Of a stretch of 64,000 nt of DNA, positions 10,901 through 59,046 are shown in pieces. The position numbers were made by a program, and so were the translations under genes. A model generated the notes under the pieces. It was given only the letters and a program-made list of their open reading frames with translations. It was not told where the DNA came from and made no database searches. The number at the start of each line of letters is the position of its first letter. The first letter of the stretch is position 1. The stretch comes from Xiphophorus maculatus (Eukaryota > Chordata > Actinopteri > Cyprinodontiformes > Poeciliidae): NCBI RefSeq assembly GCF_002775205.1, contig NC_036454.1:7011882-7075881 (forward strand), in the 5' to 3' direction.

Positions 10901-11605
10901 ACACTTTTATTATTAGGGGTGGGCATTTATCGTATTGTTTATTATGTATTGTGATCATTTTTTTCCATGATAAAATGTATGATTTATCATTCTCATGATA
11001 AATTCCGAATAACAATGTTTAAAACACCCCCAAACTGTCTGTATTTTTGGGATTGTAATTTATACTATTTTCTCCACAATTTGTTTAAAAAGAGTATAAA
11101 TAAATACAAAAAAATCTATGATTAAATGCAGATACTGGTGCAGTTTAGTGATACAAATCATACTTTAAGTGACTGGTGTCCTAAAGAAGGGTATTACAAA
11201 TAGGAATGTTTTTTTCAACAGCAGTATTTGTGGGACTGTGTCAGGCAGTCAGCCATACAGTAACCTAAAAAATAAGTAATAACTTGTTCTTATCATCACA
11301 CAAAATATTGATAAACTTTAAATCCATATCACCCACCCCTAATTATTACTTATATGAACTTGTGTCATATTAAACATGCCTCACATTAGATAAAAAGTAC
11401 CGGAGCATTTAAATTTGTACTTTTTTGCTGCATGTTAAGGGAAACCTTTGTGCTTTCTGATCCTCCACAGCATGTGTTCTGTGAGGAGTGCCTGTGTTTG
11501 TGGTTCGACCGCGAGCGAACATGTCCGCTGTGTCGCTCCACCGTCATCGAGGCCCTGCGGTGCTGGAAGGACGGCACCACGTCCGCTCACTTCCAGATCT
11601 ACTGA
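138..11605 (+). CDS. rnft2: RING finger and transmembrane domain protein 2 (3' part; 5' exons lie left of the window)
   Basis: Coding exons are 138-238, 535-688, 4301-4450, 9619-9684, 9839-9940 and 11471-11605 (stop TGA 11603-11605); all have AG/GT borders and phases that join. The first two exons encode hydrophobic membrane segments such as ILVALWIILFLGGNIVYIYY and the stretch around FDFFDLIWVVGITDFVLKY. Exon 4301-4450 has EELSQLF and QLWYKYIMG, typical of RNFT1/2. The last two exons carry a C3HC4 RING: CAIC, then C and H in ICQHVFC, FCEEC and CPLC, followed by the family tail WKDGTTSAHFQIY. The endings LCLWFDRERTCPLC and LRCWKDG look closer to RNFT2 than RNFT1, and the hrk-fbxw8 neighbourhood agrees. 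Family role: a membrane E3 ubiquitin ligase, with RNFT1 tied to ER-associated degradation; RNFT2's substrates are less clear. The 138 exon start is inferred from a strong polypyrimidine tract ending in AAG; more coding exons must lie upstream. Confidence 0.9.
1949..1991. repeat. (TA)n microsatellite
   Basis: An uninterrupted TA dinucleotide run of about 20 units lies inside an rnft2 intron. It is a likely length polymorphism. Confidence 0.95.
2219..2607. mobile_element. hAT-like interspersed repeat, non-autonomous
   Basis: The left end reads CAGGGTGTCCAAAGTGC, followed by a GTGGCCCC tract. The right end, read on the other strand, begins CAGTGGTGTTTAAAACG and also contains a GTGGGCTGAAAC tract. 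This layout resembles the common fish hAT-type repeats that start CAG-GTGTCCAAAGTG. No clean 8-bp target duplication was found, so boundaries and class are tentative. Confidence 0.4.
6375..6764 (+). mobile_element. Tc1/mariner derivative, 390 bp, internally deleted
   Basis: The element starts CAGTACAGACCAAAAGTTTG and ends with the inverse (TTTTAGTCTGTACTG), flanked by TA on both sides (6373-6374 and 6765-6766), as expected for Tc1/mariner. The terminal inverted repeats extend about 65-70 bp with few mismatches. The interior (about 6455-6600) resembles a transposase C-terminal coding tail: a frame with LKLIKKMQSVCKAVI and then YFEETRI before a stop. It is therefore a deletion derivative keeping both ends and the transposase 3' end. 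It sits in an rnft2 intron. Confidence 0.85.
7518..9150 (+). mobile_element. Degraded Tc1-like transposon of the Sleeping Beauty/salmonid type
   Basis: The left end has TTTACATACACTGTGCT, like the outer repeat of salmonid Tc1 elements. Downstream, in order, are decayed blocks of a Tc1 transposase gene: TCTGGCTCATCC about 7863, CAGGAGGGAGATGGGTTCTG about 7974, CTTTTGGAGACATGTC about 8219, ATGGACAATGACCC (as ATGGACAATGACCCTTATGA) about 8790, and GAGAAATGGGCCCAAATTCA about 8964. A right-end TGTATGTAAATATCC is near 9133. The frame is broken by many stops and indels. About 285 bp at roughly 8345-8630 does not fit the family and looks like a later insertion. The outermost limits are approximate. 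Confidence 0.75.
8345..8630. repeat. Unexplained insert inside the Sleeping Beauty-type remnant
   Basis: Transposase-like sequence on the left stops near 8345 and resumes near 8630 with ACATCATGTTGTGTGGAGGG. The intervening sequence is not part of the Tc1 family as I know it, and I do not recognise it. Confidence 0.4.
10260..10355. repeat. Compound inverted repeat (two or three hairpins)
   Basis: GCAGACTAAAA at 10260-10270 pairs perfectly with TTTTAGTCTGC at 10274-10284 across a 3-nt loop. GTACACCGTTTTTGGTA at 10301-10317 pairs with TACCAAAAAGCGGTGTAC at 10338-10355 with one bulged base. Inside this second arm pair, CCTAC and GTAGG (10318-10331) form a third small stem. It lies in the last rnft2 intron and is probably derived from a palindromic mobile element. 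Confidence 0.8.
10915..11340. mobile_element. hAT-like MITE with GGGGTGGG ends
   Basis: The left end is GGGGTGGGCATTTATCGTAT and the right end is ATATCACCCACCCCT, so the termini are inverted copies of GGGGTGGG. The flanks TATTATTA and AATTATTA match at 7 of 8 positions, consistent with a hAT 8-bp target duplication. There is no coding capacity in the 426 bp. Class assignment is by termini only. Confidence 0.6.
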
Positions 11606-12070: not shown

Positions 12071-12076
12071 TTTATT
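12071..12076 (-). terminator. Putative hrk polyadenylation signal
   Basis: TTTATT on the plus strand is AATAAA on the minus strand. It is the first AATAAA I see downstream of the hrk stop, giving a 3' UTR of about 1.2 kb. It faces the rnft2 signal only 26 bp away, so the two transcripts probably end against or slightly across each other. Confidence 0.5.
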
Positions 12077-13256
12077 ATCATAATTGCTGAAATTTCATTA
12101 GAAATATTTGACATAAAAAGAGCCCAGTTTATACAAAAAAACATTACATCAGAAAAGAGCTTATTCTCAGTAGTCACAAACAGCATAAAAGCATTTTATG
12201 CACAGGTCCAGCATTCATGGTGAAATGCTACATAAGACAGCCTCAACAGGTAATAATAACGCATACACAAATCTCTAAACAGGATCCAAACACTGTAAAA
12301 AACACCTATAAAAGCATCAGCTGTTATTTACATGTTTACAAAGAGAGTTTAGCTTATCTAAAAAAAGTACAGTGCATTGTGGAGCTTTAGAACGGGTGTA
12401 TTTCAGTGCATTTTTAAAGATTTCCTGTAGTATTTGTAGCCTATATGTGTCAGGTCTAATCAGTTTGATCCAACTGTCCCTGATGCACTCGGATCATTGG
12501 AGGAGAGAACATTCAAAGGCGCACCATTAGTAAGCTTTTCCCTCCGCTGGTACCAGGGGAGGATTACATCACTGTTTTGTTTTGTAAATGGGATGACAGA
12601 ATCAGAGTGAGAAGGGGGCAGGACAACTGCAAATTCTGTCAGTTTAAAACTCCAAGTCCATCCACAGTGGGAGTTAAGTCAATTCAGTCAGCCTTCAATC
12701 TTGGAATACGAAATCTTTTAGGCCATCCCTTCGTCCTCTTCAGTCTGCACATTTCTCCAGCAACAGCATCCTCCTGCATCTCTTGCTTTAGTGCAAATGA
12801 TGTAAGCCCATTTGCTGTTCCGCATGTGATTTTTTTTTTTAAAGGCACCAGTCTACAGTGGGAGAAATGTATCCACATAAAACACATTAATTAAAAAAAA
12901 AAGTATGTCCCAAAAGTCAAACATGTCAAATCAGCTAGTAGTTATTGGGCAATCAGCAGCTATTTGATTATTTTTCCCCCCTCTTTCTTTTGAAAAATCG
13001 AACAAATATCTGGATTTTAGAACAAAGGTGGTATTTTGTGCTTAAAAATGTAGCTTTGTCTTTAAAAGCTGGGACTTGTTTCATTCTTTTTTTCTTTTTT
13101 TTTTACTCCATTGTCTACACAATGCATAAAAACAAGAAGAATCAATGGGATCAGCTGTCTAAAGGGGCTGCAGCCTGAGAAAAAAACAGGTTATCTTTTA
13201 AAGATTCATAGACACTGATGTTATCTCACCTGTTGCGGAAGTCGCAACCACGCGCC

Positions 13257-13550
13257 CTACAGGTGTCGCCTCGCGCTGAGCAGCACAAGCAAGGTGACTT
13301 GCACCGCGAGGCACAGGAAGCCTTTGAAGTGGCCGCGCCCGGTCACTGCTGCCACCGTCACTCTGTCTCCGCAGCCGAGGTCGCCGGTTGTCTCCCCGGC
13401 TGTCCAACTCTTCTCGAGCTGGTCCCCGATTCTCCGTAGCCGCGACGCGAGCAGCTGAGCTACGGAGCAAGCAGAGGTGCGTCGGCGCGATGCGCTGCAG
13501 CTGGAGTCTCCCGGCCGCAGCAGAGGCTGGTCTATCGGAAGCCAGCACAT
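13257..13550 (-). CDS. hrk: Harakiri-like BH3-only pro-apoptotic protein, 97 aa, single coding exon
   Basis: ATG at 13550-13548 (revcomp of CAT) and stop TAG at 13259-13257 give 97 residues; human HRK is 91. Residues 31-48 contain a BH3 helix, with LLASRLRRIGDQLEKS around the L-x-x-x-I-G-D core (I41, G42, D43). This is the part of BH3-only proteins that docks into the groove of BCL-2 and BCL-XL. Residues about 77-92 (GFLCLAVQVTLLVLL) form a hydrophobic tail anchor followed by RRHL, as in HRK, which sits on mitochondrial and other internal membranes. The frame stays open upstream, but no in-frame ATG lies there, so this ATG is the first. The coding region is GC- and CpG-rich against AT-rich surroundings. 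Position between rnft2 and fbxw8, with orientation opposite to both, matches human HRK. The 50-76 linker is poorly conserved. Confidence 0.85.
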   Translation of the reverse strand: MCWLPIDQPLLRPGDSSCSASRRRTSACSVAQLLASRLRRIGDQLEKSWTAGETTGDLGCGDRVTVAAVTGRGHFKGFLCLAVQVTLLVLLSARRHL

Positions 13551-13818
13551 CTTCGCCTCTGACTGAGCCTCCGCGCTGTTCCCTTCTTCTCTTAAAATCT
13601 GGGAAGGATATATGAACCCTCCTCCTGCTCCCTCATCAATCCTTAACTGTGTTTGCGATCCCCAGACTCTCCCCACCTCTCGCTGCTGTATTATTCATTA
13701 CCATGTCACATGGTGTTTAGGGTTTACATCATCTTCTTCCAAGAGAAAGATGCGGCGCTTAACACTCGGATCTCGGATGTTTGGGTTCATCTGAAGAGTC
13801 TTTTGTTTAAGGAGACTG

Positions 13819-13826
13819 GACGTCAC
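13819..13826. promoter_or_regulatory. CRE/ATF-like site
   Basis: GACGTCAC differs from the palindromic CRE TGACGTCA by one base in the GGACGTCA register. It lies about 270 bp upstream of the hrk start codon. Mammalian HRK (DP5) is induced in neurons through JNK and a c-Jun/ATF site in its promoter, so the position is suggestive. A single short match can arise by chance. Confidence 0.35.
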
Positions 13827-14160: not shown

Positions 14161-17100
14161 ATGGCAGCGAACGAGCTTGTTGCCTTCAGGGAACGCTGGA
14201 AACGAGAGTTAAAGAATAGAAAAGAAGAGAATGGACTCGTCTGCGTTCCTTCTTCCTCAAAGTCCTCCTCCTCCAGGGATCATCCAGAGCAGAAAGACTT
14301 AAAGAAACCTCGTGATACTGTAAAACAAGAGGAATCGAGCTGTACTGAGGATGAGGGAAGTGTTAGTGGTGGGAGCTTTGCTCTAGAGGCAGATCAGCCT
14401 CAGTATGTCTCCATTGCACGCAGTCTGTTGGAGGGGAGGACCAGTCCCCTGCTGGACAGGATTCAGGAGGAGAGAACGAGGAGAAAGAGGCAGTATCATA
14501 ACATGACCAACATGTGCAGCGTATCCCTGCAGCAGAGGCAGCCTCAGTGGAAAGTGAAGAAAGAAGAGGAGCTTGTGGATCAACTCATTCTGGATCTGGT
14601 ATGATGAGGAAGATGCTGGTTGAGCACAAATTCAGTGTGAAAGCGTAGTTTCCCCCTTACAGGTTTCTTCCATCTTTGATTTTTGCATTTCAGATAATCA
14701 GTAAATAAATAATCAATTAAATGGAGCACATAAATGACCTGACATGCAAACATAATTGGTTTAATCATTAGCTGTGCCATTAAGCATTTGCGATAATGGG
14801 CATTGTTTTTTCCCCATCAATGTGAAGGAATGGGCTGCATCTTTTTTTCACCAGAAGTGTCTCAATTCAGTCATATTGAAGCGTTTCAAACATAAATGTT
14901 TGGCCATATTTCTGTCATTCAAGAGTTTCACTTAGCCTCTCCAAATCCCTTGTTTTTAGTGATTCAGAGGTGGTCTTACAAATGTACTTCAGACTATTGT
15001 CCTGCTGTACAATAACCAAAGTGCTCCTGGGCTTTGGGTCATGAGCTGGTGGCCGAGCGTTCTCCTTCAGGATGTCTGGTATAGAGTGTGTTGCCATTAC
15101 CCTGAGATTTTTTGAAGCAAAAAAGCCAAGACATGAGAAATCTCCAGGGTAGCAAAAACTTTTTACAGTATTGTACCCATTGTATCTTGTGTTTTGTACT
15201 GTAATCCCTTTTCTTTGCAGAATGAAGTCAACGACATTCCCTTCTTTGACATTGAATTGCCGTACGAATTAGCCTTGAAGATATTCCAGTACCTCAACTG
15301 CATGGAACTTGGTCGATGTGCCCAGGTGAGGTGCAGAAACAACAAAAAACTGTGTACAGCTGAATGGCTTAGCTCCTTCTAAAGAGGTTTTTGTCTTTAA
15401 ATTGTCAATTATTGGCATGAAAAAATCTAAACTGGGGAAGTGTAGAGGGAGAAAGTTTATCTTGCCTCACAATAATTACTTAATCCTTTAAAGTTGGTTT
15501 TCTTTTGCTATATTTCAAAATTTTATGCAGATTGAAATTCTTGTTTGAAGAGGAAATAATAGCCATGAGAAGTTCAATACAAATGGTAAAATTACATTTT
15601 GGTTTTTGTAGAATAAATGTAGGCAGTGTAAAATTACTGGGAATTTAATAACTGAATTTCAGGCATAAACTATGTAGACCCCTTGAGTTTTCCCAGCACC
15701 AGAACTAAACTAGGGGAGGCAGAGTTTAGTTTCTGTGCTCCTCGGCTTTGGAACAAACTCCATGAAAACATATTTATCCAGTTCCTTTACTTCGGTCAAC
15801 CAATCTAACTGGATTTTTTAATACTGTATTTCTTTTTGTCTTCCATTCGTATCATGTAAAGTCCTTTATTTTTGTCTAGTGCATAAATTATTCTATTAAA
15901 AAACATTTCTGTCTTAAAAGAAATTGGTCTCAAAAGGCCCTTTTAATGATATGCCAACCTATTGTACATAGATTGACACACTGCCCCCACCTGTTGCTGC
16001 ACTCTACAAGTTGGCTAGCTGAAATAAAGTGAATGGACTTTATTCCTGCTCTCACTTCTGGTGTTTTACCACATACGCTTGGATGGTTGGATCCTGACCC
16101 CAGCTGTAGACCTGCTCTACATGCTTTTTTTTATAGGGTCCAGATTATGTTATTAATTAAATTAAAACAGATGAGATGATCAAGCATACTTTTAAGAGAC
16201 TTATAAATCATGTCCTGTCATTAAAATCCATGTATAACTTTAGTTTTATTGTTTCTTTGTGCAGCGTCCGTAATTTGGCGATTAGTTACTTTAATTACCA
16301 TTACCTTCTTCATTCTGTATTGCTTTGGGCAGCTCATGACTTTATTTTGTGCATGTTAGTAAATTAGATATTGAGTGGCAGATCCACAGCACTCGTGGTG
16401 CAGAGAGCCTGTTTTGGCAGGCGGCCGGGCTCGTTAAGCGGAAATGAGTGATGCAAGCTCCTAATGTATGCTGACTCAAACCACTGTCATGTTGTCCAAC
16501 CTCCTCCCAGGTGAGCAGGGCATGGAGAGTCCTCGCGGAGGATGGCGTTCTGTGGTTCAGGTTGTGCCAGAGGGAAGGTTACCACCAGGGTGTCTCGGTG
16601 TCCAGCTCCCCCTGTTGGAAGAGCACCCTGCGAGACTGCAGGAACTCGGCCAGAACTGTCCGCTCCAACTGGAAGGTGAGCTTGATCTGTTCTACTTCAC
16701 TGAAATGGGAAGGTTTTTTTTTTTTAATCAAATTACTAAAACTGTCTGAGAGGTGAAGTCGTCTTATTAAAATAACACAATAAAACTAACGTGTGATTGA
16801 CAGCAGACCATGATCACTACAGTGTTTATTTGCCAATATTTACGTGACTTAGAAATCTCATTGCCAATAACCACAGATTGTAGAGGTCAACTGTGCTGTT
16901 CTCGTTTGATTTACTTGTGGATAAGAAAAATAAATTCATAATGCATCTCCTTGCATCTCCTTCACATTTTGCCAAATTACAACTGCACATTTGATTTACT
17001 GGGATTTTATGTGATAAATCAACACAAAGTGGTGCTTACCAGAGTAGTGGAACAAAAATGATGCATAATTTTTTTAATAATTTCCAAAATGGAATCTTGA

Positions 17101-20100
17101 CTACTACGGCATCCATTTGTATTCAGCCAAAAACCATTATTTTCAACATTTCAATAGTTAGTGAATGGATGACATCAAAAATGTACCCCACAAAACACGG
17201 ATAAAGAGAGCACTTAAAACGCCATTTAACACATGTTGTTATTTGTTTAATAACAATATGTTAAGCTTTGGACATTTTACAAAGTACTGTTCTTAATAAT
17301 ATTGACCTTTTAAGACATGGTGTGGTAGAAAACTAACATTTACCGTCACTTTAAGCATATCAACTCCACAGTTAAACATGGTGGTGGCAGCATCATCCTG
17401 GGGCCATGGTCAGAGTTGATCGAAAGATGGTTGGAGCAATGCATGGCAGCAATAACAAACCTGTCTGAGGATGCATAAGACTTGAGAATGAAATATGTTC
17501 ACTTCTCAGCAGAACAGAGACCATAAACATGCTGTCAGAGCTACAATGGAATAGTTTAGTGTATTCATGTGTTAGTGTGGCCCAATCAAAACCCAAATTT
17601 AAATACAATTTAGATCCCGAAGCAAGACTTTGATTTGAAGTTTATTGATGCTTTGTACAAAATGTAACTGTGTTTTTTTGCAAAGACGAAAAGCCAAAAA
17701 TGTAATTCTTAAGATGTGCAAAGCGGAAAACACATTCACACTACACTTTTCAGATTTTTTATTTGTACAAAATGTTCCTTCCACTTAACAATCATACACT
17801 GCTACGTGTTGGTCTACTACACTAATTAAATTGTTTATAGTTTTAAGCTCTGCATCTGTAACTCTTCAGAATCGAGTGGGATCTGTCAGCCAGCTGCAGT
17901 TCGAGTTGGGGAAAATTCTGTGCGACGTCAGCTCCTGTGACAGCTTCGTGTTGGCCGGGTGAGTTTCAAGGACGAGCAGATCATGTCTGATGTCCTTTTT
18001 GTTTTAGCAGAGCTCACTTGGTCTCATTTCATCTGCATTGATTTCTCTGTCGCACTAAATAAAACTTGGTCATAGATTTTTGTGATTTAAAGCCGGGGGA
18101 TTAAATGAATGTAGAAGACGCTGTGTGTCCCTGTCTAAACCAATGCCAAAATGTTGCATTTACATTGATGAAATGATAAATCAGGGGACGAAGTTTGGAT
18201 TTATTTTTACAACTGAAAACGATGTATTATGCTGAACAACAACATCAAACAACTAGAATGCTAATGAGGACTTGGCCAAATACACAATGTTTTATATGGA
18301 ATAAAGTATTTCTTATTGACAAACACAAGGAAGTTAAAGCTGATTTAAGTTCCCATGTGTCAAGTTATTATTTAAGTTAACTATTTCCTGTCAGAATAGA
18401 AGCTAAAGAAACCCAGCCTCCTCTGACTGGCTAGCTCAGGTTGTCTGAGCAGACTTCACCCACAATTCCTCACTGGCTCTAAAGTTTAAGGGATTTTATG
18501 TATTTTGTAAGAATTGACAAACAGCATTTGGTTAACTGAAAATTGTTTGAATCCTTATTTGGCCATGAGCTACTTTACACGTAGACAATGATGGTAACAT
18601 AATGACCTGTGAAAGACAAGCATTTCACTACACTCCCATTCAGTTAATTTTATTTATATTTCAACTAAATAAACTTAACACTAGATAAGAAAAGGACCCT
18701 AACTGAATAATATTCAAATTAATTTAAATGCAATTCATTCTAATACAGCCTAGTTCAGTATAATTTTATGCTTTTGGCCAGACATGTAGCTCCAAAACAT
18801 GATGATAGTGTCATTATTAACTGGGTAACACTTAAAGTAAAGGAATCCAGATCAGACCACTAAATTGAATTGTACTGATTATCTTTTCATCATGTTTCCT
18901 GTCAGTTGGCGAACCATATTAGGATCCAATTGAATGCTTTGTTTTCTGTTATAAGCTGGAAAAACAAGAATGACTTCGAAAAGGGTCACGTTGTAATGAC
19001 AAGACAACCATGTCATAGCATGTTTAAAAACTGTACCTTGTGTGTGCTGTTCTCATTCCACAGTGGCCATTATTTAAATCATTGTGCCTGATTGATATAA
19101 TTGTTGTAGCTGATTTTACAGGCACATTCAGAGGCTTTCACAAGACTAAATTTGAGAATTAAACAGCAGTTTTATGACTTCAGCCACACATTAAAGCCAT
19201 ATGTCAGACCTCTGATGAAACCTCATGTGAGCAAATGACAGCAGGAACAAGGGTTTTTACATTGACAGAATAAGTTTTGATCAGAAATTGTGAATTAAGA
19301 CAACTAATTCACAATCATATAGTCACATTATTGCTCTTCTTTGCAAAAAAAAACAAGTAACAATTACATTTATTGAGGAAAGAGGACATGAATTGCAACT
19401 TAATCAGCTAAACCTGCCCTTAACTAGCTGGTATGAGGCAGTGATAAATTGTGAGGAACCTGGAGGGCTCAATAAGGGTGCCCTTAAGGAGATCTGCAGT
19501 GTCTCCTGGGACAAAGGCTACTAGATTCCCATTAGTCCTGCTGGATCCCTTTAGAGAAAACAGCCTGTTTGTGTGGTTTCAAATTAGTAGATGTGCGGCA
19601 CACAGTACTTAAACATTGAAGACATTTAATAAGTGGCCTGATGCAATGTGAACTCACTGCTAAATCCTCAGCTTTATGTATATGCTGCTAACATATTCAT
19701 GATGTAAGTACATTCCTCATTTTTGGTACTTGAAGAGTAATTGAGGTAAATGAAACTATTTCAATTTGTCTAAAAAAGAATCAATAGCAGTTAAGAGCAA
19801 GTCAAGATTGATTTGATTGCTGACAGAAAACCAGTGGGAAGGTTGTTGGCTTTAAAAAAAAAAAAAAAGAAACAGGAGAAGCAGCGGCCATTAACCCAAC
19901 TCAGACAGAGCAGATCTGCTGAGGCCTGCATAAATACCACTGTAGTCTGAGCAGAAACTTCTCCCCACAGAAGTTTGTTGGGCGACATCCAGCATGGTCG
20001 TCATGCTGATCGCTGGCGTTTTGATGATGCACCAATTAAGGAAAAAGTGTGTGCTTCTACTCCTGCCAAACCCTACAAATCCACCCCCACACACACACAC

Positions 20101-23100
20101 ACACGGAGAGCTACTCGCATATACGCTTTGTGTCAAACTGGCTGTTACTGTACGACACATTGCAGCTCCAAGTCACAGAGACATGATTGAATCTGTGAAG
20201 GTGGCAGCATGCTCGTCTCTCGCAGTGAGAGCTAATCAGCCAGGGCAAAGAGATGAGAGAGGAGGTGTGTGGAGTTCAGAGCAGAGGGCTGCTCTGCTCC
20301 ATTTGTTAGACATTTCTTCTCAAACAAAAGAAAAGTGTGCAGATGGAGGAGTGCTGAGAAGGGATGATCGCACACTATCATCAAGTCCTTAAAGTACTTC
20401 AGGGAACTGCTTGTCTTTTATTCCACTGAAAGCTAATCTGACCTCTTTTATTCAAAACATGTTGGTTGTATAACACCACTCTAAAGCCTAAAAGACATTT
20501 AAGCAATATCTAGTAACTCATCTGTTGTGTTATATTTAAGGTACACGTCTGGTGATGTGAGGCTTTGGGATACGTTGCACTGGGACTCAACATCTTCGTT
20601 CCTCAAGACCAACAGTCTTTCGGCGAACACGCACCCTAGGCCGCACGTTAGTCACGTCCAGATCAACAGCACAGTGGCTGCTGCTTCATATGAAGATGGT
20701 AAGTGGGTGTTTGTTTAATGTGGGTCTATTATGCAAAATTCACATTTTGCATGTTTTTATACTTCCGTTTGGATTTCAACAGTTTCTAAAAAACAGCCAA
20801 AGTGCTTAAAATGCCATCCAGCTGGGTTTTTTTGCCAATAAGAAATTTTTTTTGTGTCTGAAAAATGAGCATTTTCAAAAACCTTCCAATTGCTAAGTCA
20901 CAATCGACGGGCTCTGCACTGTTACCTATCAACTAGGGATGCTCCGATCCGGTTTTTTTATTGATCACACATGAGGCCGATCTCTGCCGATCACCTGGAT
21001 TGGCTGTTAATTTTTCTTAAAAATTCGCTATAGATATAAATGATACTATGTTATCCGGCAAAATTTAAAAATGATCTGGCAATAAATTCACCTAATTTAG
21101 ACATAAACATGCAAAATACTTGCAGGCACAATACAGCAGGTATTCAGTCAAAAGGACAACTGAAAAACCTGCAATCAGTAAAACAATATTTAACAGTAAA
21201 ATTCTCAGCTCCATAAATTATTAGTCAAATAAATCTCACAACACTTATCATCAAATACGTATATAAAATAATGTCAAGTAATAAAGGAGACATCCATTTA
21301 AAGTTAAACGCAGGTTGCATCAAAATAAACAATCCTGAGTTACTGTCAAAATTTCCTGACTAGCTGATTAATGCTGGTTCTGATTGGCTGTTTCTGACTG
21401 AGCGGAATAATTCTGCAGAAACAGGGAGGAGGCAGAGGAGATTGATTATTTTCATAGATTATCTATCTTATGTTAGGACAGCGAAAGTTTTAATTTTAAT
21501 TTAATTATCTAAAAATCGTTTTGTTTGTGCTGCAGCTTTAAGCAGACGTTCGGCGTGAGAGTTCATTGCTGGGTGGAGGATGATCGGCGCTACGTCTGTG
21601 AAATATCACTGCCAGTAGCGCGTAGCGGCGGTTCAACAGCGAGAGCAGATCCAGCTTCTTACACCGCCAGCTCGAAGACTTAAATTATTTTTCGGTTTAT
21701 TTATTTAGCTTTCTGACGTCATGCTAATCCGGGCAAGTGTTGGTAGTTGTGCGCTGCTTTACCTGCTACCTGGCCGCTCCGGTCCGGATGTCCTTTTGTT
21801 CCTGCATTGAGCCTTGGTGCAGCCAGACTCCGTCAAGTGTTTGTTTTTTTTAAATGTCATATTAGATTCGTTGTGTTGATGCATTTTGACGTGGTAATTT
21901 TCCGCCGCAACACGCAAACGTCCCCCTTCATTCTCAGAGAGTTAAAGTTCCACACGTCATGGTTTGTTGCCGCGCGCTTGCGCAGTGTGAAGAAAATAGT
22001 AGAGCAGCTGCACACGCAGGCTGCGAAGTGAGATAAATGTGATCGGTTTTGGTGATCGGCAACAAGAGACCGCGATCACCGATCATACACTTTTTCACGG
22101 AAATCGGCCGATTATGATCGATGGCCGATCGATCGGCACACCTCTACTATCAACCTCGAGCTCCTCATCTAGCAGCCCGAGAGAAGCTCCGCCCACTTAG
22201 AAGATGAGCACAATTTGGTCAGCTGGTTTTACTACTGTCTGCGCAGTACAATAGTTGCAGGAAAAGACTAGTGTTTGTTTTATCCACTTACCATTCATAA
22301 TTCACTTGCTGTATTCTTGTTGGTTGCGCAGGAGGCTCTACTTGTGCTTTTCAAAGATGTACTGTTGTATATTTTTGTATCTCTTTGCAGCCATTTACAC
22401 ATGAGAGTATAATGTTGAGTTGGGGGTCGTGGGCAGCAGCAACTTATTTGAATTTAAAGTGAGGAGAGGCCCTAAAACAGCTCATTCTGAAAAAAGGTGC
22501 TTAATAGGCAGAACTGACCAGACTAAAATCTCATGATCTAAGAATAATTTTGTGCAAAAAATGTAATGAACATATTTGGGAAACCAGCAATCTATAAGAC
22601 ATTTGTGAGCAAAAAGATAAATATATAGTAGAAAGACAATGCTGAACATTGTCTATACATTTAGATGCCTATTAAACCTTTATGCACAATGTCTCATTTT
22701 CAGCATTTGCTGTAGTGACAAAACTGTTTGCACATAGAAATCAAAACTCTTTTAGTCAAAGGTTGTGTTTCTGGCTTAGGCTGTGTAGACCTGTGGAGTA
22801 CAGAAACAGGTGGGGAGCCCATCCACCACTACCAGATTCCCGGGAGGATCCAGGCTTTGAGTCTGAGCCCAGACAGTCCGGTCCTGGTCTCAGCCGCAGG
22901 GTCAGACGTTCGGCTCGACAGCGCCAATGACTGCGGCTACTGGAGGACTGTCTGCGAGACTCGGCTACCCAAAATAGTGAGTGGGACACTTTGGTTGTGT
23001 GTTAATGAAAGATGATGTTCCACAGATGCAGATTTTTTTATTGTGAATTGTACTTTTATCGTATGTATGGCAGGTAGAGAGCCTGACTTTTGTACCAAAC

Positions 23101-39892: not shown

Positions 39893-42800
39893 TTATTTTC
39901 CACAATGCAGATTAGCGGTGTTCATATCCAGAAAGCGAACATACATCCTGGACTCCATTTCAAGGTCTTTTAGAATCTGCGGACAAGCAAAATGCTGTCA
40001 TTAAGTCACAAAGTGTATTTAGGTATTTAACAAAGCGAGAAAAAGTGCTAACCTGTTCAAAATGTTCCAATGTAATTCCTTCGTAGAAGTCATCCGGGCC
40101 CTGGAGCAACATGAATCTGTTATTTTATTGGTCCAACAGTGAGGAAGGAATATTAGCGGCGTGATTTTGGTGACTTCTCTTACCATGTTGGGCACATTTG
40201 TGCTCGCCACCTCCAGCATGGCAGCATCTGCTATCGCCCTAGCAACTTCCTGCCCAATGGACTCACTTTCTGAAAGAAGTCCCTCGACAATCTTGGATGT
40301 AAACAGAAAATGAAGACTTCACTGAAAAAGTTAAAACTGTAGAAGAGGATAATGACAACTGAAAAAGAAACGAAACATAGTTCTTTTTTAAATCTGAATT
40401 CTGACTCTTTTTGAAAAGTTTTTGGACAGAATCATTTAAAGAGCTATTTCTGTCATAATGTGAACTATTTGGTTTTCTCTCTCATGGAAAATACTACTCA
40501 TCCAGCATTTTTGTTCTCAGTTGTTTACTTTCCCAAAGCCATTAATTGAGGTAGTGCTGCTTTTAACTTTGCATGCTGTCTTTCACACTCTATTAATGTC
40601 TTTATAGGTTTAAATTTAAAGGAAAAAAGTCTTCCTTTCTATTCTTTTTATAACGTATTGTGATATTGCTCACTAAGTGACCTCAATCCTTTAATGGTTC
40701 CTAAACCTGTAGATTTTTTTAACCTTCTCTGTTGGGACTAATTATACACTACTTTTGACAATGAGAGTGTACACACACTGATTCATCTTGTACCTGCTAA
40801 AGCAAGACAATATGGAGCAAGTCATTATATCCACAATAATGTAACCTTGGCAAAATGATCAGTTAGAAAACATGTAATTGAATTGACTTCCAATGCTTTG
40901 TGCATGTTTTAGTGTTTCCTTTCATCATATTTGACCTCAATCTAGTTCAGATGCATTAAAAATTATTATGACAAAGAAAAATATGCCATGCATCAAATGG
41001 GACAGAAATCAAATTTTCTTATCTTAAGAGCTTTGGACTCAAGGTCACCTTTTGTTTGAGAAAACTGTCATTTTACTGACAAGAGTTAGCTTAGGTTTAA
41101 TTGAATTAATTTCCAATTTTATAACAGTGGAGATGCTTTACTTCCAGATCTGCATGCGGCCATGTTTATTCTAAGTAAAGCTGAGTGTCCATAATGGGTG
41201 TCTGCTACATGCAACCATATTTCAAAACAAGGATTAATGTAATCAGTGTTAAATAAAGCACATAATGAGCACCTACCTTTCTGTACTCCTCCAGCGTAAT
41301 TTTGCCATCACCGTCGGTGTCGTGCATGTTGAACAGGACTGGGAAAACAAAACAAAACAATTAGATTTTTGAGGAAATTTCCACCCACAAATTATGGGAT
41401 TGCGCCAGAGGAAGTTATGATTACAGGGCCTGTCAGGATGATTCAGGGATAAGATAATGAAGCAGATCCTTCAAGCCGTAACAGGATTACGACTGACACT
41501 GCAATGCCCAGAAAACCTTTTTGTTCTCTAAGTTACAGCAGTTTAATTTCTCAAATGGTTCTTTCACATATCAAAGACATCTGGATACTTTTAAAGATAG
41601 AGAGGTAGAATTGTTTGATTCAGATGGATGGAAATAAAACTTCTGCTCCAACAAAAAACAAAATGCAGAGTTCATATGACTGATAAAAAGGTGTTTAGCC
41701 TATTTAGACTAAACAAAAATGTCTTTTTACTTGGGACGACAAACAATTGGACTCTACAGACATTAGAGAGTACAATGCTTTTGAGTTCTTATCTTACACG
41801 TCTATCTTCTGGTTGAAACAGGAGTATAGGGCAGAGTCTGTAATCCTAAAGGGATACTCAAATATTGAGGTCATTTCTCAAGTTTGAGGAAAGATGTTCT
41901 TTGTACAAACTAGGAAACTTTGGTCTAAACATATGTTTGCCAATAAACATATGGCAAACATATGTTTACTAAAACTAAGGTTTTTAGTTCTTGCTGTACT
42001 TACAGGAAGGAATACTTTTATTTTTCAGGTAGTGACTTTTTTTTGTCATTGTCTCATCACACAAAAGAAATATTATGTTACATAATATAGGTTTTGGTAC
42101 CTAGAGTGCCTTGCAAAATGTTTATCTATATACTTGAGCCTTTTCACATTTTGTCACCTTATACTGTAAGTGCTATGGGCTATGAGAATTTATGTGATGA
42201 AATTAGTTCTTAAATGGAAGCAAAAGGTTATGATTTACAAAAGAAAAACATGCGAGTATAGAGTTTCAGCTTTGAGTGTTTTGTGATATTTCTCCATCAG
42301 CTTTGGTCACGTAAAGGCGGACAATTTTGCTAATTCTTTAGCAAATACATTTATCTCTGTCACACTGCTTGGAGTTTGTGAATATAACTTGCTAAGTCTT
42401 GACACAGATTCTTAATTGGTTTTAAGTCCAGGTTTAACACTTAATGTGTTAATTCAAACCATCCCAATGTAACTCTTGTTTTTATGTTTAGGGTTGTTGT
42501 CCTGTTGCCAGGTGAACAATCCCCCCCCCCCCCCCCCCGTCTCAAAACCTTCACAGCCTTTAATGGGATTTTTTCCAGGCTCCTGAGTTCTTTCCCTCAT
42601 TCATCAACTGTGACAAGCTGTCCTTTCTCCAGACAAATGTGGCCACATCATGATGTTGCAACCATGATGCTTTACTGAGGGATGGTGTGTTCAAGGTGAT
42701 ATAAAGCTGGTTTTCTACCCAATGTTTTACATACAGTAACACTTTCTTTCAAAAATGTAATGCACAGAATTGATAAATATCCTGTCAATAAATTATCCTA

Positions 42801-50959: not shown

Positions 50960-53900
50960 CTACATCGACTTGAACTGGTGGCTCATTTGTTCAGAGGCAG
51001 AAGCCCCATTTCGGCTGACAGATCCAGGAGTCATTCTGTGGTAGAGCTCTTGCACTGTGCCCAGGGTTTCCCTCATGTCCTCAGGGTATCGTGTCTGCAG
51101 TTCTTCATTGGCAACGTAGTGGGTTTCGGCAAACTCTGAGAAGTAGCGGCCCACCTCCGGGTGCCCAATCTCAAGAGGGGCAGAGTGGGGCTCCAGGTTC
51201 TCTGCGGAATACCAATGAACACACGTCACTGCACTGCTACATTGGTTGAATACACAACTTAAGGGTGTTTTTAGTCAATACTGTTTCTATAAAAAGAGGA
51301 ACAAGCAACAGAGTTTTACGAAATCAAAAGAATGTTGTGGCTTTGAGAAACATAGCCTGTAGGAAATCCTGAAGTGTTGAAGATTGAACAGATAAGTTCA
51401 AACAATGAAAGTCATGCAGACACAAGCTGGGAGATTTCACACATGGGGAAGTAAGTTCAGCTCTGGCACAATCAAATATAAGCTTTGGAATAACATTTAT
51501 AGTTCTGTGTATAGAGGTGCAGATAATATTGTTGATGCCCTCTAGTACAGTTGTGATATCAGCATTTAAATATATTTGCCGCCATCAATTGCAGAAGCAC
51601 AGTATCACACTTTTAAAATACTCCTGTCTTTAAGTTGAGCAATTTATTCATAGGATAAAAACCATCTCCTCTTACTTTTTGCACATCCAACTCAACTTTC
51701 TAAAGATGTGCACAAAGTCCGAGGAGATTGTTTTTGATATTGCAGAAAGTAAAAACAAGCCAATACGCCCCAATAGGAAAAACAGTATCTTTTGTTCTAT
51801 TTTTAAATGCAGAGCAGCAGGTCAGGTTTGGGTGTGGCTCCTGCAGGTTATGTGAGCACAGCTGATTCTACTCATCATGATCACAGCACACATGCTGGGA
51901 AAAGAGCTACTGGGTAATTTGGCAGTGTGAGGGCTATCAGAGGTGTTAGTAAAGTTTTGCAGCCTATATATAGTATAATATATAGTATTGTTTTCATGTT
52001 AAAGTGTTTTATGGTTACCGGTACTCCTTTTTAATAATAGCATTACACCTACGTGATATGGTTTGGAAGTCTTGATTTTGATCCTTGTTTCTTGATTTTA
52101 AGATTTATCATGTGTTTTTGTTTATTTAAAAATAATTACATTTTCCTTTTACAAATTTGTGGGGTACAAGCTCCTACCTTGAGGGGCTCCCTAAGGGGAA
52201 TGGTCAGAGATCATTTTCTCTCTGTATGCTTTAACCTTGTGGAATATTACAGAACACAATAATCTCTGACCTTATCTAGATTTCAAGTACTTCTTGAGGA
52301 ATACTTCATTTTTAAAAAAATAATTTTGATATGCTGCACGCCTTTAACATTAAACCTACAGTCTGTGGTTCATCAGGAGAAGCCCCCTGCTGGTGGATGT
52401 GAGGCGTACCCTGAGCTGCGTAACGGCACGTCCCGTCTTGTACCAGCACGTTGTAGAACGGTTGGTTAGCTCCACTGGACAACTGGTGGACCCTCATGGT
52501 GTTGATCCACTCCTGGCTCATGGTGCATTTAGGATCCCAGCCGTAAATCACACAGTTATACCCCGACCTGGAAGAATTTCAGTAAACAGTGTTTTACAAT
52601 TTGAGGTAATTTGTCTTTTTGTCTGCGTTGTGTTTTATAGGAACTTACCGCTTGTGTTTCATAATAAGGCCGACTGAATACTGGACCTCCAGGTGTTCGG
52701 GAGCGCTGCGCCGCTTCACCTCAGGAGTGACAGGATGCTTCTTGTGCTGGATGTGCTCCAGTGTGTGCTGCACTAGGTAGCCCACAGCTCCATGCTGAGA
52801 AGGATCCAAAGCCTGGATATGCTGCAGGATGTCCAACACCTGGGAGCAAGGTGAAGGAAAATAAGTGAAGAGCAGCACAATGCTAAATATTAAAATACCA
52901 CACAATAGCAATATAGGAAAGTATAGGTGTTCTTGTCATTTTACTCCAGCTTAAGATATAAAACAGTTATTCAAAATTAGACCTAAAATAATAATGAAAA
53001 ATCTGGTTTGTATTTGAAAACATTTTTGCTCAAGTCTGACCTTTTCTGGCCAGATTCCAAGGTGGAAGTAGAGGCGCGCCTGCAGCAGCAAATACTGAAC
53101 GTTATCTGGATTGATGGTGAGGTAGAGATCCAGCGAATCCCTCAGCAGCTGGTAAGATTTCTCATTTCCTTCCCTGATGGAAAACACACACCGCAGATGA
53201 TGCAGCTTAAACTAAAAATGTATTTTGTAAAAAGCAGGCACAGGATGGGGTGTAACATTTTATTCAGTTTTAAGCGCTCCAAGACTGTACTTATACTATC
53301 ACTGACTTACAACAATAGACCCCGGCAGAAGACAGTAACAGGAGCTGAGAAGGTCATAAGTAATCAATCAATTGATTAGCATGGAATTGAAAGATTAAGA
53401 TGTCTGTATCTGCAAAATAATCTTGCATCAGACATCCTTCATCTAATAACGTGAATGGTTCTTCTTACCCTCTTTTGCCGATGTTGAGCAGGTTCCCCAC
53501 CATCCTGAGCAGCACCTCTGTGGTGCTAATGGCACTGTAGTAGTCTGCCGTCACCTGGTGGCCAATGAGGTACTCGCATTCCTTCGCCGTCAGCTGCTTG
53601 CCTTTCCCAAAGGCATCAATGTAGACAAAGTCATAGATATCCTCACTCCTGCGTATGGAATGTTCTGTTAACATTTATTTAATAGGCTCAGAAAATGTAC
53701 TGAGTTGTAGACTTATATTTAAGCATTTATTATAAAAAAAATCACTTGATAAAACAATTTAAATTTCTTGCAATATTTTAGAGTGAGAACAACAAGAAAA
53801 GCTCTGATTTCAATAAATATTAAGAAACGCTTTATGATGCAAATGTAAAAGACTTTGATATATTTTAAGTGTATCTGTTTCCAATAGTCAGGGGATCAGC

Positions 53901-56900
53901 AACAAATTAGCAGAAACGTCTTTGTAATAAATGTAAAACTGAGCAACAACGCCAAAAAATGCTGTCATAAAAGGTTCTTTTTTAGTATTCCCACCCCTAC
54001 AAAAAGTAGGAAATTCAAATATTAATGAATTAAAAAATAGTCAAGGCAGGACTGATTTTTAACTCAACTCTGTCATGTCCTTTGGTTGCAAAACCCTTGT
54101 TTCAATCTAACTAACTTTGACTTATAATCACACAGCCAAAAAACGGGCAAAAGTAGAATTCAGAAATGTGCAGTCATTTAGATAAAACATAGTTGTCCAT
54201 TAATAAGCTACAGATTAATTAAACTGCCACATAACAGAAATTACACCACTATATCTACAGATCGCATGATTGTATATTTTTTTTAAAAAAGTGGAAATCG
54301 AGAAAGACAAAACATGATCAGTGATTGCTCAATAATTTTAGGCTACTGTGGTAATCTGTGCAACTGAAAGGTTGAAATCAGTGTGTAAATAATAAAGATG
54401 TAAATATTCTAATTTCAAGCCATACCCTCTTGGTCTCTGGCACCAGCGCAACAGGAAGTGGTTGGGAAAGTTGACGGGCTCCAGCTGAACGCCCAGCTTC
54501 CGGGCGAGCGTCATGTAAAGGATAGAGAGGCTTATGGGTATACCTGTCCGCCGAAGTAGCACCTGGGTGAATAAGAAGTACGGTGAAAATATTTCAGAAC
54601 AACATATTAGAAAAAGTTGTCAGCTGGTGCCTACCTGATGGATGTAGGAGTTGAGCGGGTTGTAGTAGTCGCACTCGTTGCCTTTATACTGAAGCTGTTC
54701 ATACAAAACTGCGTTCAGGGCCCACAACACCTGCCTCTGGAGCTCAAAGTCCTCCGTCATACAGTCACCTTCACACAAGTTAGTTGTTTCAAACAGAGCT
54801 CAGCTATTCAGGCTTTTTATTTCTACTCGCAATATATTTTAAAACAAACAAACAAAAATGCAAAATACATGCAAAAGGCCCCAAACAAGAAGAGCGTTTG
54901 ATTTATTTTATTTATTTTTTACTATTTTTAATTTTTTTTTCTAAAACACCTACTGTTAGTGACCCGAAGGCTGGGATGAGAAGGGTTCTTGATTCTCAGC
55001 ATCTTCTTTGCTTTTTCTGCCACATCATCTATTTGTTGTGAAATGGACTCCAGTGTGACATCAGCCAATGGGTTGCAATACTGATCCACCAGCACAGCGC
55101 CTAGCAAAGCAAATACAACCCAAAAAAGACATGCATGAGGAAAACAAGCAATTTTAAATTAAGGCGAGGGAGGAGAATACCCTTTTTTCGCATCTTGTTT
55201 TGACTTGCTTTTCAAAATGTGATTAAAACTGAAAACAATACTTTCTAAGCTCTAAATAAATCCAGAATGAAGAAATTGTGTAACTGTATAACTATTACTG
55301 AAAAGATATTTTATGCATCTTCCACTTTTTGTTCATTCAGGGACTGACCCACAGCATCATAGGTTCTCCACTGTACCCAACAGCAGGCATGAGGTGCATT
55401 TCTACATATTAATCCCTTGTCTTAGACCGGACCAACTTGGAGATTTTATATCTTAAGCTAATCCTTGTCTCAGCTGTCCAATGTACTTCCTGTTAAAGTC
55501 GCTCTAAGCGTCATAAACCTCCACTCCTTTTGTGAAAGAGGCTAACTCTCTCACACAATAACAAAACCTTGAGGTTATGAAAAAGATGCATTTGTAATCA
55601 ATCTCTGGTGCTCTATGAAGTAGTTATAATAATTTCACTTTCAATTTAGAAATTGCTACAAAACAAAAACTGACTTGCTGATATGTTGCAACCTTCACAA
55701 TGAATGATATTAATAAGGTAATGGCCAGCACTGATGGTTACCTTCCAGAGCCGACTGCTGCTCTGCGGGCTGGGCTAAGAAGGTCTTCAGATTCCTCAGG
55801 ATGTTCTGCTGCCTCAGGAAGTAAAGGATTTTCTTTGCATAGTATTTTAGGGTCAAGCTTTTCCTGGAAGAGGGTGGAGAGACATGAACATTTGCATCAC
55901 AAATGAGTGATGCAACAAAGTTTTTCTAATCACAAAGAATTATCTGAATCAACATCCAAGCCCCAGCTGATGGGTCAAAATCGTCTGTTTGTGGAGTGTT
56001 TTGGTTTGACTTTGAGCACAGTGTTACTCTCACCTCTTGTCTGAGTTGAGTATGAAGAGGAGCTCGTCTTCACAGAAGTGCTCTGGCATCCCGAGTGACT
56101 CGATCTCTGCAAAGCTGTCTCCAAGCACCTGGCCAACGCATGGCTGAGTTACAAGAACTCTGGATTAGTTTGCAACCCAGCGGATTCACATTATTGCACA
56201 GACATGCGCCCACACACACTTATCCCTTCCAATTAGGCATGCAATTCTCAAGGTATGATGATATTTAGGAAAATTTCACAAGTTCACTGTAGCATGGTAA
56301 TTACTCTAAACTTAACTACAATTTACAGCATAGCTTATCTCCTTTTTTTAAATAGAAAAGTGAAAATGATTCCTACTGCAGGAAAATTTATCTCATAACA
56401 CTGACAATTAACCATAACCATGTTTCTGTATTATTTATTTTCATGGATACAATTAATAAAATAAACACCAGCTATGTGTAGATGTAGTTTTCATGTGCTT
56501 ATTGCACAACATAACTTTTTATAAATAATAGAAAGTAACTTAAATGTCCTCATAGGAAAAAATATAGCCTTTCTGATCATTTTCAATAAAAATCTATTTC
56601 AGGAGTTAAGTAAACATATAGGCCTTTAAGTGGCTAACCCCCCTGAAGATATAATTAATACTTGATAGAAACATTCAGGTTCATCGTGATTTGAAAGATT
56701 TACATTTTTATCGTACAAAAAATGTCGGTATATGATATTTTAACTTTTTGGACTTTTAATGGATTTTTTGTCATTGGGGAGAAATAAATTAGGACGTTAA
56801 AATACCTCTAAGGTTGTAAAAAAAAAAAGACGGGTATGTTCAGCTGCAGGTAGGGGAGGTGACACACTGTGCAATTCTATGCAGATGGAGAAATTTCAGT

Positions 56901-57922
56901 AGTTGATTTTAAGCCCTAAGAACAGACTTCTTTTTAGTAGTATCGAAACTTTTTAAGACCTTGGCATATGAGTAACCGGTTCATGCCTCTATCCAGGTTA
57001 AAGCAGCATTACTGATTCTACATTATGTCAAATCTTTTCTTGCATAATATTACTTAATAAGAAGGTGATTACTTACAACTTCTGTGAAGAATCGCTTTGA
57101 AATGGATTCCACTGTCCTTCGTATCTGTATTCCAACTCTATGCCGGGTTATGTATTCCCTAAGCCAGTCACAGCTCTCATTTTGACGATAGAACCTCTGC
57201 AGTCTTGGCCATCTGTCGGTGTAAGGAGTAAATTTGTAATTTCACAATGACTTAGTTTTTTTTTTTTGGAGGAGGTTAAATCAGGCTCTAAAACCTTCAA
57301 TCATCCTGCTGCAGTAGATGCAGTTCAGAAAGAACTGATACTGTCAGACTAGTTGAAGGACTACATATAGGATTCAAGGTCAAACAAATTCATTTTAAGG
57401 GATTCTGCAAAAAGCAGGATGTACGTTTTACCAATGATAAATTTTAAAACCCATTTTCCTTACGAAGTTCATAGATGTCCACGGTCATATTGCTTAGCAC
57501 CGGTGAGATAAGGACAAATTTGGTGCATCAGCAGAATGACAGCTTCCTGTGAGTTCGCAGTAAACGAGCCAACCTTCAAAGCGAAAAGGAGGGTTTCATG
57601 ACCCTAAAGTTCTGGATAATATTAGGATTGTTTTCTGAAGATAAAGACGAAATGTTACAAGAATCTGCATAAAGAGAAGCTAAAAATATTTGCAGCACCT
57701 GATTTTGTATTGGTGTTCCCAGACCTTTCCCCTTCCATGGCAGACATCGTGCAGCCGTTTGCAGCAGCATGACACGTTACAAACGTCGACATGTTTGAGG
57801 ACAGGGAAACACAGAATATGCTCAAGCAACTCGGTCGGCAGGTCGGTCAGTTTTTTGGATTGGGACTCGTTAACGATCCCGTTCAAACTGAGCTGCTCCG
57901 CTCTGGCTACAGACGTCGCCAT
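50960..57922 (-). CDS. fbxo21: F-box only protein 21, 12 exons, 632 aa
   Basis: Exons in transcript order: 57922-57699, 57212-57077, 56128-56034, 55863-55742, 55100-54954, 54768-54635, 54562-54426, 53648-53469, 53173-53041, 52839-52649, 52567-52410, 51201-50960 (stop TAG). They total 1,899 nt; human FBXO21 is 628 aa. Residues about 25-70 are the F-box (LTDLPTELLEHILCF). Residues about 240-400 are a SirB1-type domain (RRTGIPISLSILYMTLARKL, NFPNHFLLRW, YIDAFGKGKQL). TPR-like helices follow (SYQLLRDSLDLYL, LYFHLGIWPEK). Residues about 488-575 are a YccV/HspQ-like domain (YSVGLIMKHK, YNCVIYGWDPKC, QPFYNVLVQDGTCRYAAQ). Family role: substrate receptor of an SCF ubiquitin ligase; EID1 is a reported target, and a role with ASK1 in antiviral signalling has been described. 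Start context AAAATGG is strong. The exon 5 donor was set by phase: using the GT 4 nt further on gives a stop. Confidence 0.94.
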
Positions 57923-59046
57923 TTTTACTGTTTACCCCGATTACCTCATTGCTGTAGCCCCGCCTCCTTATGGCGCAGGGGGCCTGGCTAAGGGTGGGGC
58001 ATGTTGCATGTACTGCATTGTGATTGGCAGATCGGTCCGAAAGGAAAGGGCGAGGGAAAAGATGCTGCCTTCAAAGTCCTCTTGAAATATATACATATTT
58101 CTATGGATTTGTGGGCATAATTTCAAACTGAAGAGTGGACATATTGCACAATTAACTTATTTTGAAATAATATGTGTACGTGTAACTTTATTTCAAGAAA
58201 AACAACTGTTTTTAACGTTTTTTACAGAACATGACAAAATGAAAGAGGAAATCTTCCTGTTACCTTATTATAGCTACACAACTATGACTACCAGATTTAC
58301 TTTACTCAAATACATAACAGAAAAAAAATAATTCTAGCTATGGTATTTCAGTAGCAGAATAATATCATAATTCAGTGCCCAGCATCCCAAAATTACTTCT
58401 AATGTTTTTTCCAGTAAGTACTACTTTATAGACGGTACGCGAATGCACCACTGCATTTTAAAGACATCGCTAACAGGTTGTTAGCCGCAGTTAGCTGTTG
58501 TTTTCGTTCCAAGTTTTTTTTACAGAAAAGTATTGGATAAAATAATTTCATGAATTTACATGGTTTTAGAGAAAATTTTATACGGGAAGCTGTATTTGGA
58601 CGTGTCGATTTAAAAACGACGTTAACTTTACTTAGCTAACTTCTTTTATATAGTTATCTTTTAACCAGCTATCGTTAGCAGCCAGCCTTACTATGCCGTA
58701 GTTATCTGTTTTTGTTAAACTTTATCTGTGGACCTTTTTGTATTAATCGGAGATATGAATATTACATACAGAGGAGTCTGATAAATCAGTAACATGTCGC
58801 CGAAAGACAAATAATTCTTGATTAGTATTGTTTGCAAATATTGTTAGTATCAGCTGAAAACTCACATGAATGTTGTGTTTACCTGTGGATAACTAACCGC
58901 TAACTACATTATCGTGTTTCCGAACCATAAGATGAACTAATTTAGAGAGGAATGTCTTAATAGGGCTTTTTTTTTTAGTTTATAAGGAATGTCTAAAGTA
59001 TCATTGGTGTATTGAATAGAATAGGAGCGTTTATTTACGAGTCGCC
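57923..59046. promoter_or_regulatory. Divergent fbxo21/nf2 intergenic region
   Basis: 1.1 kb separates two start codons that point apart, so it must hold both promoters and 5' UTRs, unless nf2 has a more distant first exon. The fbxo21 side is GC-richer, with CGCCTCC and a CCAAT box; the nf2 side is AT-rich. Confidence 0.5.
58023..58027 (-). promoter_or_regulatory. CCAAT box upstream of fbxo21
   Basis: ATTGG on the plus strand (within GATTGGC) reads CCAAT on the minus strand, about 100 bp upstream of the fbxo21 ATG and in the correct orientation. This is a typical NF-Y position. Confidence 0.45.

Follow-up and report, generated by a model that had tools for sequence, protein, structure and literature searches.

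A single uninterrupted reading frame on the minus strand of Xiphophorus maculatus DNA (13257..13550) is very probably the orthologue of hrk (HRK, harakiri/DP5), a BH3-only pro-apoptotic gene. Coordinates refer to the 64-kb window, that is, the whole stretch of DNA that was analysed. The identity as a fish harakiri gene, put forward in a preliminary description of the locus, is supported because the Pfam family Harakiri (matched below its cut-off), the alignment with human HRK and the flanking genes agree.

Reading frame and protein features

The coding sequence is a single exon of 97 aa, identified by frame translation, Pfam and the alignment with human HRK. It starts with the ATG at 13550 and ends with the TAG at 13259-13257, the stop being included in the coordinates; the preliminary description had given frame, coordinates and strand exactly (97 codons, intronless, minus strand). 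The protein read on the minus strand from 13550 to 13257 is MCWLPIDQPLLRPGDSSCSASRRRTSACSVAQLLASRLRRIGDQLEKSWTAGETTGDLGCGDRVTVAAVTGRGHFKGFLCLAVQVTLLVLLSARRHL, followed by the stop. An A is present at -3 of the start ATG. Upstream of this ATG the frame is open as far as 13694, with no second ATG in that stretch, and seven ATGs lie at 13790-13636, each of which opens a frame of 1-30 aa.

Residues 29-47, SVAQLLASRLRRIGDQLEK (13410..13466, minus strand), form the BH3 region, in which 10 of 19 residues are identical with human HRK in the alignment. Its core is LASRLRRIGDQL, and the BH3 pattern h-x-x-x-L-x-x-h-[GAS]-D is present as LASRLRRIGD (residues 34-43). The BH3 core proposed earlier is present, but its spacing is L-x-x-I-G-D (L38-R-R-I41-G42-D43) and not L-x-x-x-I-G-D. 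In the window, 69 ATG frames are 60 aa or longer, and the hrk candidate is the one frame among them that carries the BH3 pattern. A putative C-terminal membrane anchor, also expected from the earlier reading, was placed by hydropathy and alignment at residues 77-93 (13272..13322, minus strand), the most hydrophobic 17-mer, with a mean Kyte-Doolittle value of 2.29. The hydrophobic C-terminus is followed by RRHL and the stop.

Similarity to human HRK

Harakiri (PF15196) was the sole Pfam family reported for the candidate protein. The match (E = 0.0075) reaches 17.2 bits, short of the curated cut-off of 27.9, so that by Pfam's own rule Harakiri would not be called; human HRK, in contrast, scores 179.9 bits. 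The match is colinear and aligns candidate residues 1-89 with positions 1-85 of the 94-position model. No further Pfam family indicating another BCL-2 homology domain was reported in the 97 aa (matches above E about 0.1 being mostly filtered out), and the four frames overlapping the candidate gave no Pfam family. NCBIfam, a prokaryote library, gave nothing, and no Rfam RNA family was found within the window at the gathering threshold. When the fish protein was compared with PDB by phmmer, none of the 19 sequences with an E of 10 or less was an HRK chain; the matches were avidins and an acyltransferase. The top match, avidin (E = 0.00037), comes from two stretches of E = 2.2 each and looks spurious, although it is formally stronger than the Pfam match.

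The reference human HRK (UniProt O00198; PF15196) has 91 aa, compared to 97 aa in the fish candidate. In the human sequence used, residues 22-53 and 61-91 are identical to PDB chains named harakiri, and residues 1-21 and 54-60 are supported by the score of the whole sequence against the Pfam model given above. In the search of the 97-aa frame against HRK, which had been recommended in the preliminary description, the local alignment with the human protein scored 70, whereas the highest-scoring of the window's remaining 1607 stop-to-stop frames (25 aa or more) reached 45. None of 5000 shuffles reached 70 (best shuffle 61). The global alignment scored 67 (z about 7.9), again reached by none of 5000 shuffles (best 29), and the BH3 segment alone scored 52, compared to 34 for the next window frame (0/5000 shuffles).

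The alignment shows an MC..P start and CSA.R, then S.AQL.A.RL...GD.L; at the C-terminus it shows LC.A.QV..L with one one-residue gap and RR.L at the extreme end, the hydrophobic tail thus ending in RR-x-L as in human HRK. The fish protein has IGDQL where human HRK has LGDEL. Its middle stretch is several residues longer than that of human HRK and dissimilar to it, and the divergence of the stretch between BH3 and anchor that had been noted earlier is borne out by the alignment.

BIK is a tail-anchored BH3-only protein that has an IGD core in its BH3 and a C-terminal hydrophobic anchor, as does the fish candidate; its genomic position differs from the HRK slot. A different small BH3-only gene such as bik, relocated here, would share these features, and the BH3 12-mer does not single out HRK because its scores with human BAX and human HRK are nearly the same (35 and 34). 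However, Pfam gives Harakiri and reports neither Bik nor any other BH3-only family (with matches above E about 0.1 mostly filtered), and the rnft2-fbxw8 interval is HRK's own place, which makes a bik-type gene very unlikely. The tail alone is not decisive either, since in 77 of 5000 shuffles the score was at least as high, and the same is true of two other window frames. Thus, BH3 and tail are each insufficient for the HRK name, which is given because order, ends and place agree.

Occurrence of such frames in shuffled sequence

As a null model, 10000 dinucleotide-preserving shuffles of 13200-13700 were scored for ATG frames of at least 80 aa, for the BH3 pattern and for a hydrophobic tail (hydropathy threshold 1.6). 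Of the shuffles, 2384 contained an ATG frame this long; frame length alone is therefore unremarkable in this G+C-rich stretch. This count, and the presence of further open frames overlapping the candidate, would suit an open frame that arose by chance in the G+C-rich sequence preceding fbxw8. When the BH3 pattern was required as well, 13 of 10000 shuffles remained; with the hydrophobic tail instead 49, and with both only 1, counts that are somewhat flattering because pattern and threshold were set post hoc, after the frame was known. The similarity to HRK was reached in none of 5000 protein shuffles and occurs at the sole slot where HRK is expected. Taken with the single shuffle that combined frame, motif and tail, this leaves a chance frame exceedingly improbable. 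The codon-position G+C of the hrk frame (0.64, 0.56, 0.77) fits a coding frame; it hardly favours this frame over a plus-strand one with nearly equal values (0.56, 0.64, 0.76).

Gene neighbourhood

The order of the block is read as spring1(-), rnft2(+), [hrk(-)], fbxw8(+), tesc(-), fbxo21(-). The hrk candidate lies between rnft2 and fbxw8 and is convergent with rnft2, and the flanking exons fit the syntenic slot of HRK to which the frame had been assigned, the name rnft2 being partly presumptive. On the left, a SPRING1 exon was found at L002 5097-5294 on the minus strand (PF10218, E = 1e-17). A coding-exon-like ATG frame of 167 aa lies to the left of it (L002 1660-2163, plus strand). The last coding exon of the left neighbour (11432..11602, plus strand) encodes a RING finger according to Pfam, and its PDB matches are RNF4, RNF141 and other RING proteins, with no chain named RNFT2; from its position and its sequence, we take it to be rnft2. 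A 106-aa ATG frame in the rnft2 region (8023-8340, plus strand) gave a weak SCAND3-like zinc finger match (E = 0.0012, below cut-off) and is perhaps a transposon-derived fragment.

On the right, three exons of fbxw8 were identified on the plus strand (15194..22927), with the F-box at 15194-15379 and 16475-16753 and the WD region at 22719-22927. The best PDB match of the F-box and WD exons is FBXW8 chain 7z8b_F (E = 4e-15 and 5.2e-6). The presumed first coding exon (14164-14601, plus strand) gave only a meaningless FNIP_N match (E = 0.085). An EF-hand exon was found by Pfam at 41208..41360 on the minus strand; its PDB matches are calmodulins and other EF-hand proteins, with none named tescalcin among the best 60 of 270 matches, and together with the neighbouring minus-strand frames it is presumably tesc. 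The F-box, Transglut_core2 and YccV-like exons found by Pfam on the minus strand (52315..57931) are assumed to be fbxo21 from the domain set of that gene. Pfam names none of the neighbour exons 4214-4558, 23047-23322, 40022-40318, 44482-44637, L002 6713-6988 and L002 8925-9557, some of which we tentatively read as rnft2, spring1 and tesc. A LINE-type retrotransposon (35146-38324, minus strand) is located between the fbxw8 and tesc exons; its frames are of 588 aa with reverse transcriptase RVT_1 (E = 7.3e-36) and of 388 aa with an endonuclease domain.

In human, RNFT2, HRK, FBXW8 and TESC are found together in a locus table of PMC6445783. For a SNP in the HRK/RNFT2 region, a table row of PMC3990600 gives the terms intergenic, downstream RNFT and downstream HRK. 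A position downstream of both genes implies, as far as that row goes, that human RNFT2 and HRK are tail-to-tail, as in the fish window. On the evidence of these table entries, the candidate is like human HRK both in its neighbouring genes and in its arrangement with RNFT2.

CpG island and transcript signals

The hrk coding sequence lies inside a CpG island (13201..13600) with a G+C content of 0.61-0.62 and a CpG observed/expected ratio of 0.95-1.01, compared to 0.386 and 0.43 for the whole window. By eye, a TATA-like CATATAT (13608..13614, minus strand) was noted some 60 nt 5' of the start codon, a sequence that falls outside the pattern TATA[AT]A. Just 3' of the stop there is a possible splice donor, CAG/GTGAG (13225..13232, minus strand), which would make an intron in the 3' UTR. 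Candidate splice acceptors are present beyond the hrk stop, none of them clear. The 3' end proposed earlier near 12.05 kb would fit the AATAAA poly(A) signal at 12076 (12071..12076, minus strand) and the T/GT-rich stretch downstream of it.

The exact 8-mer TGATGTAA is present at 13724..13731, on the same strand as the gene and about 175 nt upstream. It exactly matches the c-Jun/ATF2 site in the promoter of dp5/Hrk; a passage of PMC3256215 gives that site as TTACATCA in reverse complement, which is TGATGTAA. Passages of PMC3256215 and PMC4207485 describe dp5/Hrk as directly targeted by c-Jun in mammalian neurons. Over the whole window there are 12 copies of the 8-mer, whereas 3.87 are expected by shuffling (largest of 100 shuffles, 9). 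Since there is about one copy per 5 kb, the chance of a copy within 200-300 bases upstream is a few per cent, and the site may be taken as weak evidence for ATF control of hrk. Four of the 12 window copies are at 12144-13731. A CRE half-site, TGACGT, is located at 13825.

Copy number and published absence from fish

The genome (704 Mb, 101 contigs) was searched with the protein. Two candidates were scored, and only the window locus was found at E up to 0.001. By this single-protein search, a second hrk copy from the teleost genome duplication appears only partly excluded.

Passages of three papers describe Hrk as absent from zebrafish (PMC6148235), as confined to higher vertebrates and missing from zebrafish, Xenopus and axolotl (PMC6124574), and as absent from fish (PMC8998228). 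These statements, together with the diverged region between BH3 and tail, would be in keeping with a decaying hrk pseudogene or relic whose frame is still open and whose expression is lost. However, a single frame runs from an intact start codon through an intact BH3 core and tail to the stop, where a relic this old would be expected to have gained stops or frameshifts, and the locus has a CpG island and a poly(A) signal. A relic is thus unlikely by a wide margin, and the Xiphophorus maculatus locus, read as an hrk gene, contradicts the general absence of Hrk from fish.

Among the literature matches listed, with most subscription journals outside their scope, there was no prior report of a fish hrk. 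In the matched passages, HRK is a cited downstream gene only in the catfish paper PMC12071039, is found in a reference only in PMC7473648 and in a list only in PMC3916415, and 'HRK' in the eel paper PMC8834532 stands for the initials of a person. The earlier remark that such genes are often missed in fish annotation fits those passages of the literature in which Hrk is described as lacking in fish or zebrafish; as regards annotation itself, NCBI or Ensembl models of fish hrk may well exist. The HRK family itself is known, and what matters here is the correction of the published absence and the dating of the gene.

Proposed mode of action

By analogy with mammalian HRK, the product most likely is a BH3-only protein anchored by its tail and neutralises guardians of the BCL-XL type. 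This short, probably disordered protein would be targeted to and anchored in the mitochondrial outer (or ER) membrane by its C-terminal hydrophobic tail. Control would be mainly transcriptional, with hrk turned on by stress signalling, probably through JNK and then c-Jun/ATF2. The BH3 helix (L34, L38, I41, D43) is predicted to enter the groove of a BCL-XL-type pro-survival protein and to displace BAX, which would lead to permeabilisation of the mitochondrial outer membrane and to cell killing, as expected from the mammalian protein. According to the relevant passage of PMC9171138, HRK seems to be BCL-XL-specific and could bind BCL2A1; a table in the same paper also lists HRK/BCL2.

Significance of a probable fish hrk

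An intact fish hrk in the expected slot would date the gene to the bony-vertebrate ancestor, assuming vertical descent, an assumption that the synteny supports. In that case, work on the death of neurons in fish may be passing over one of the genes involved. That HRK dates back to the ancestor shared by ray-finned fish and tetrapods and was not an invention of higher vertebrates, with a JNK - c-Jun/ATF2 - HRK neuron-death switch already wired via the same promoter site, is a proposal that we hold tentatively and rate slightly below an even chance. If it is true, the absence from zebrafish would be a lineage loss or an overlooked small gene. The rnft2-fbxw8 interval would be a simple place to seek hrk in other fish and in amphibians.
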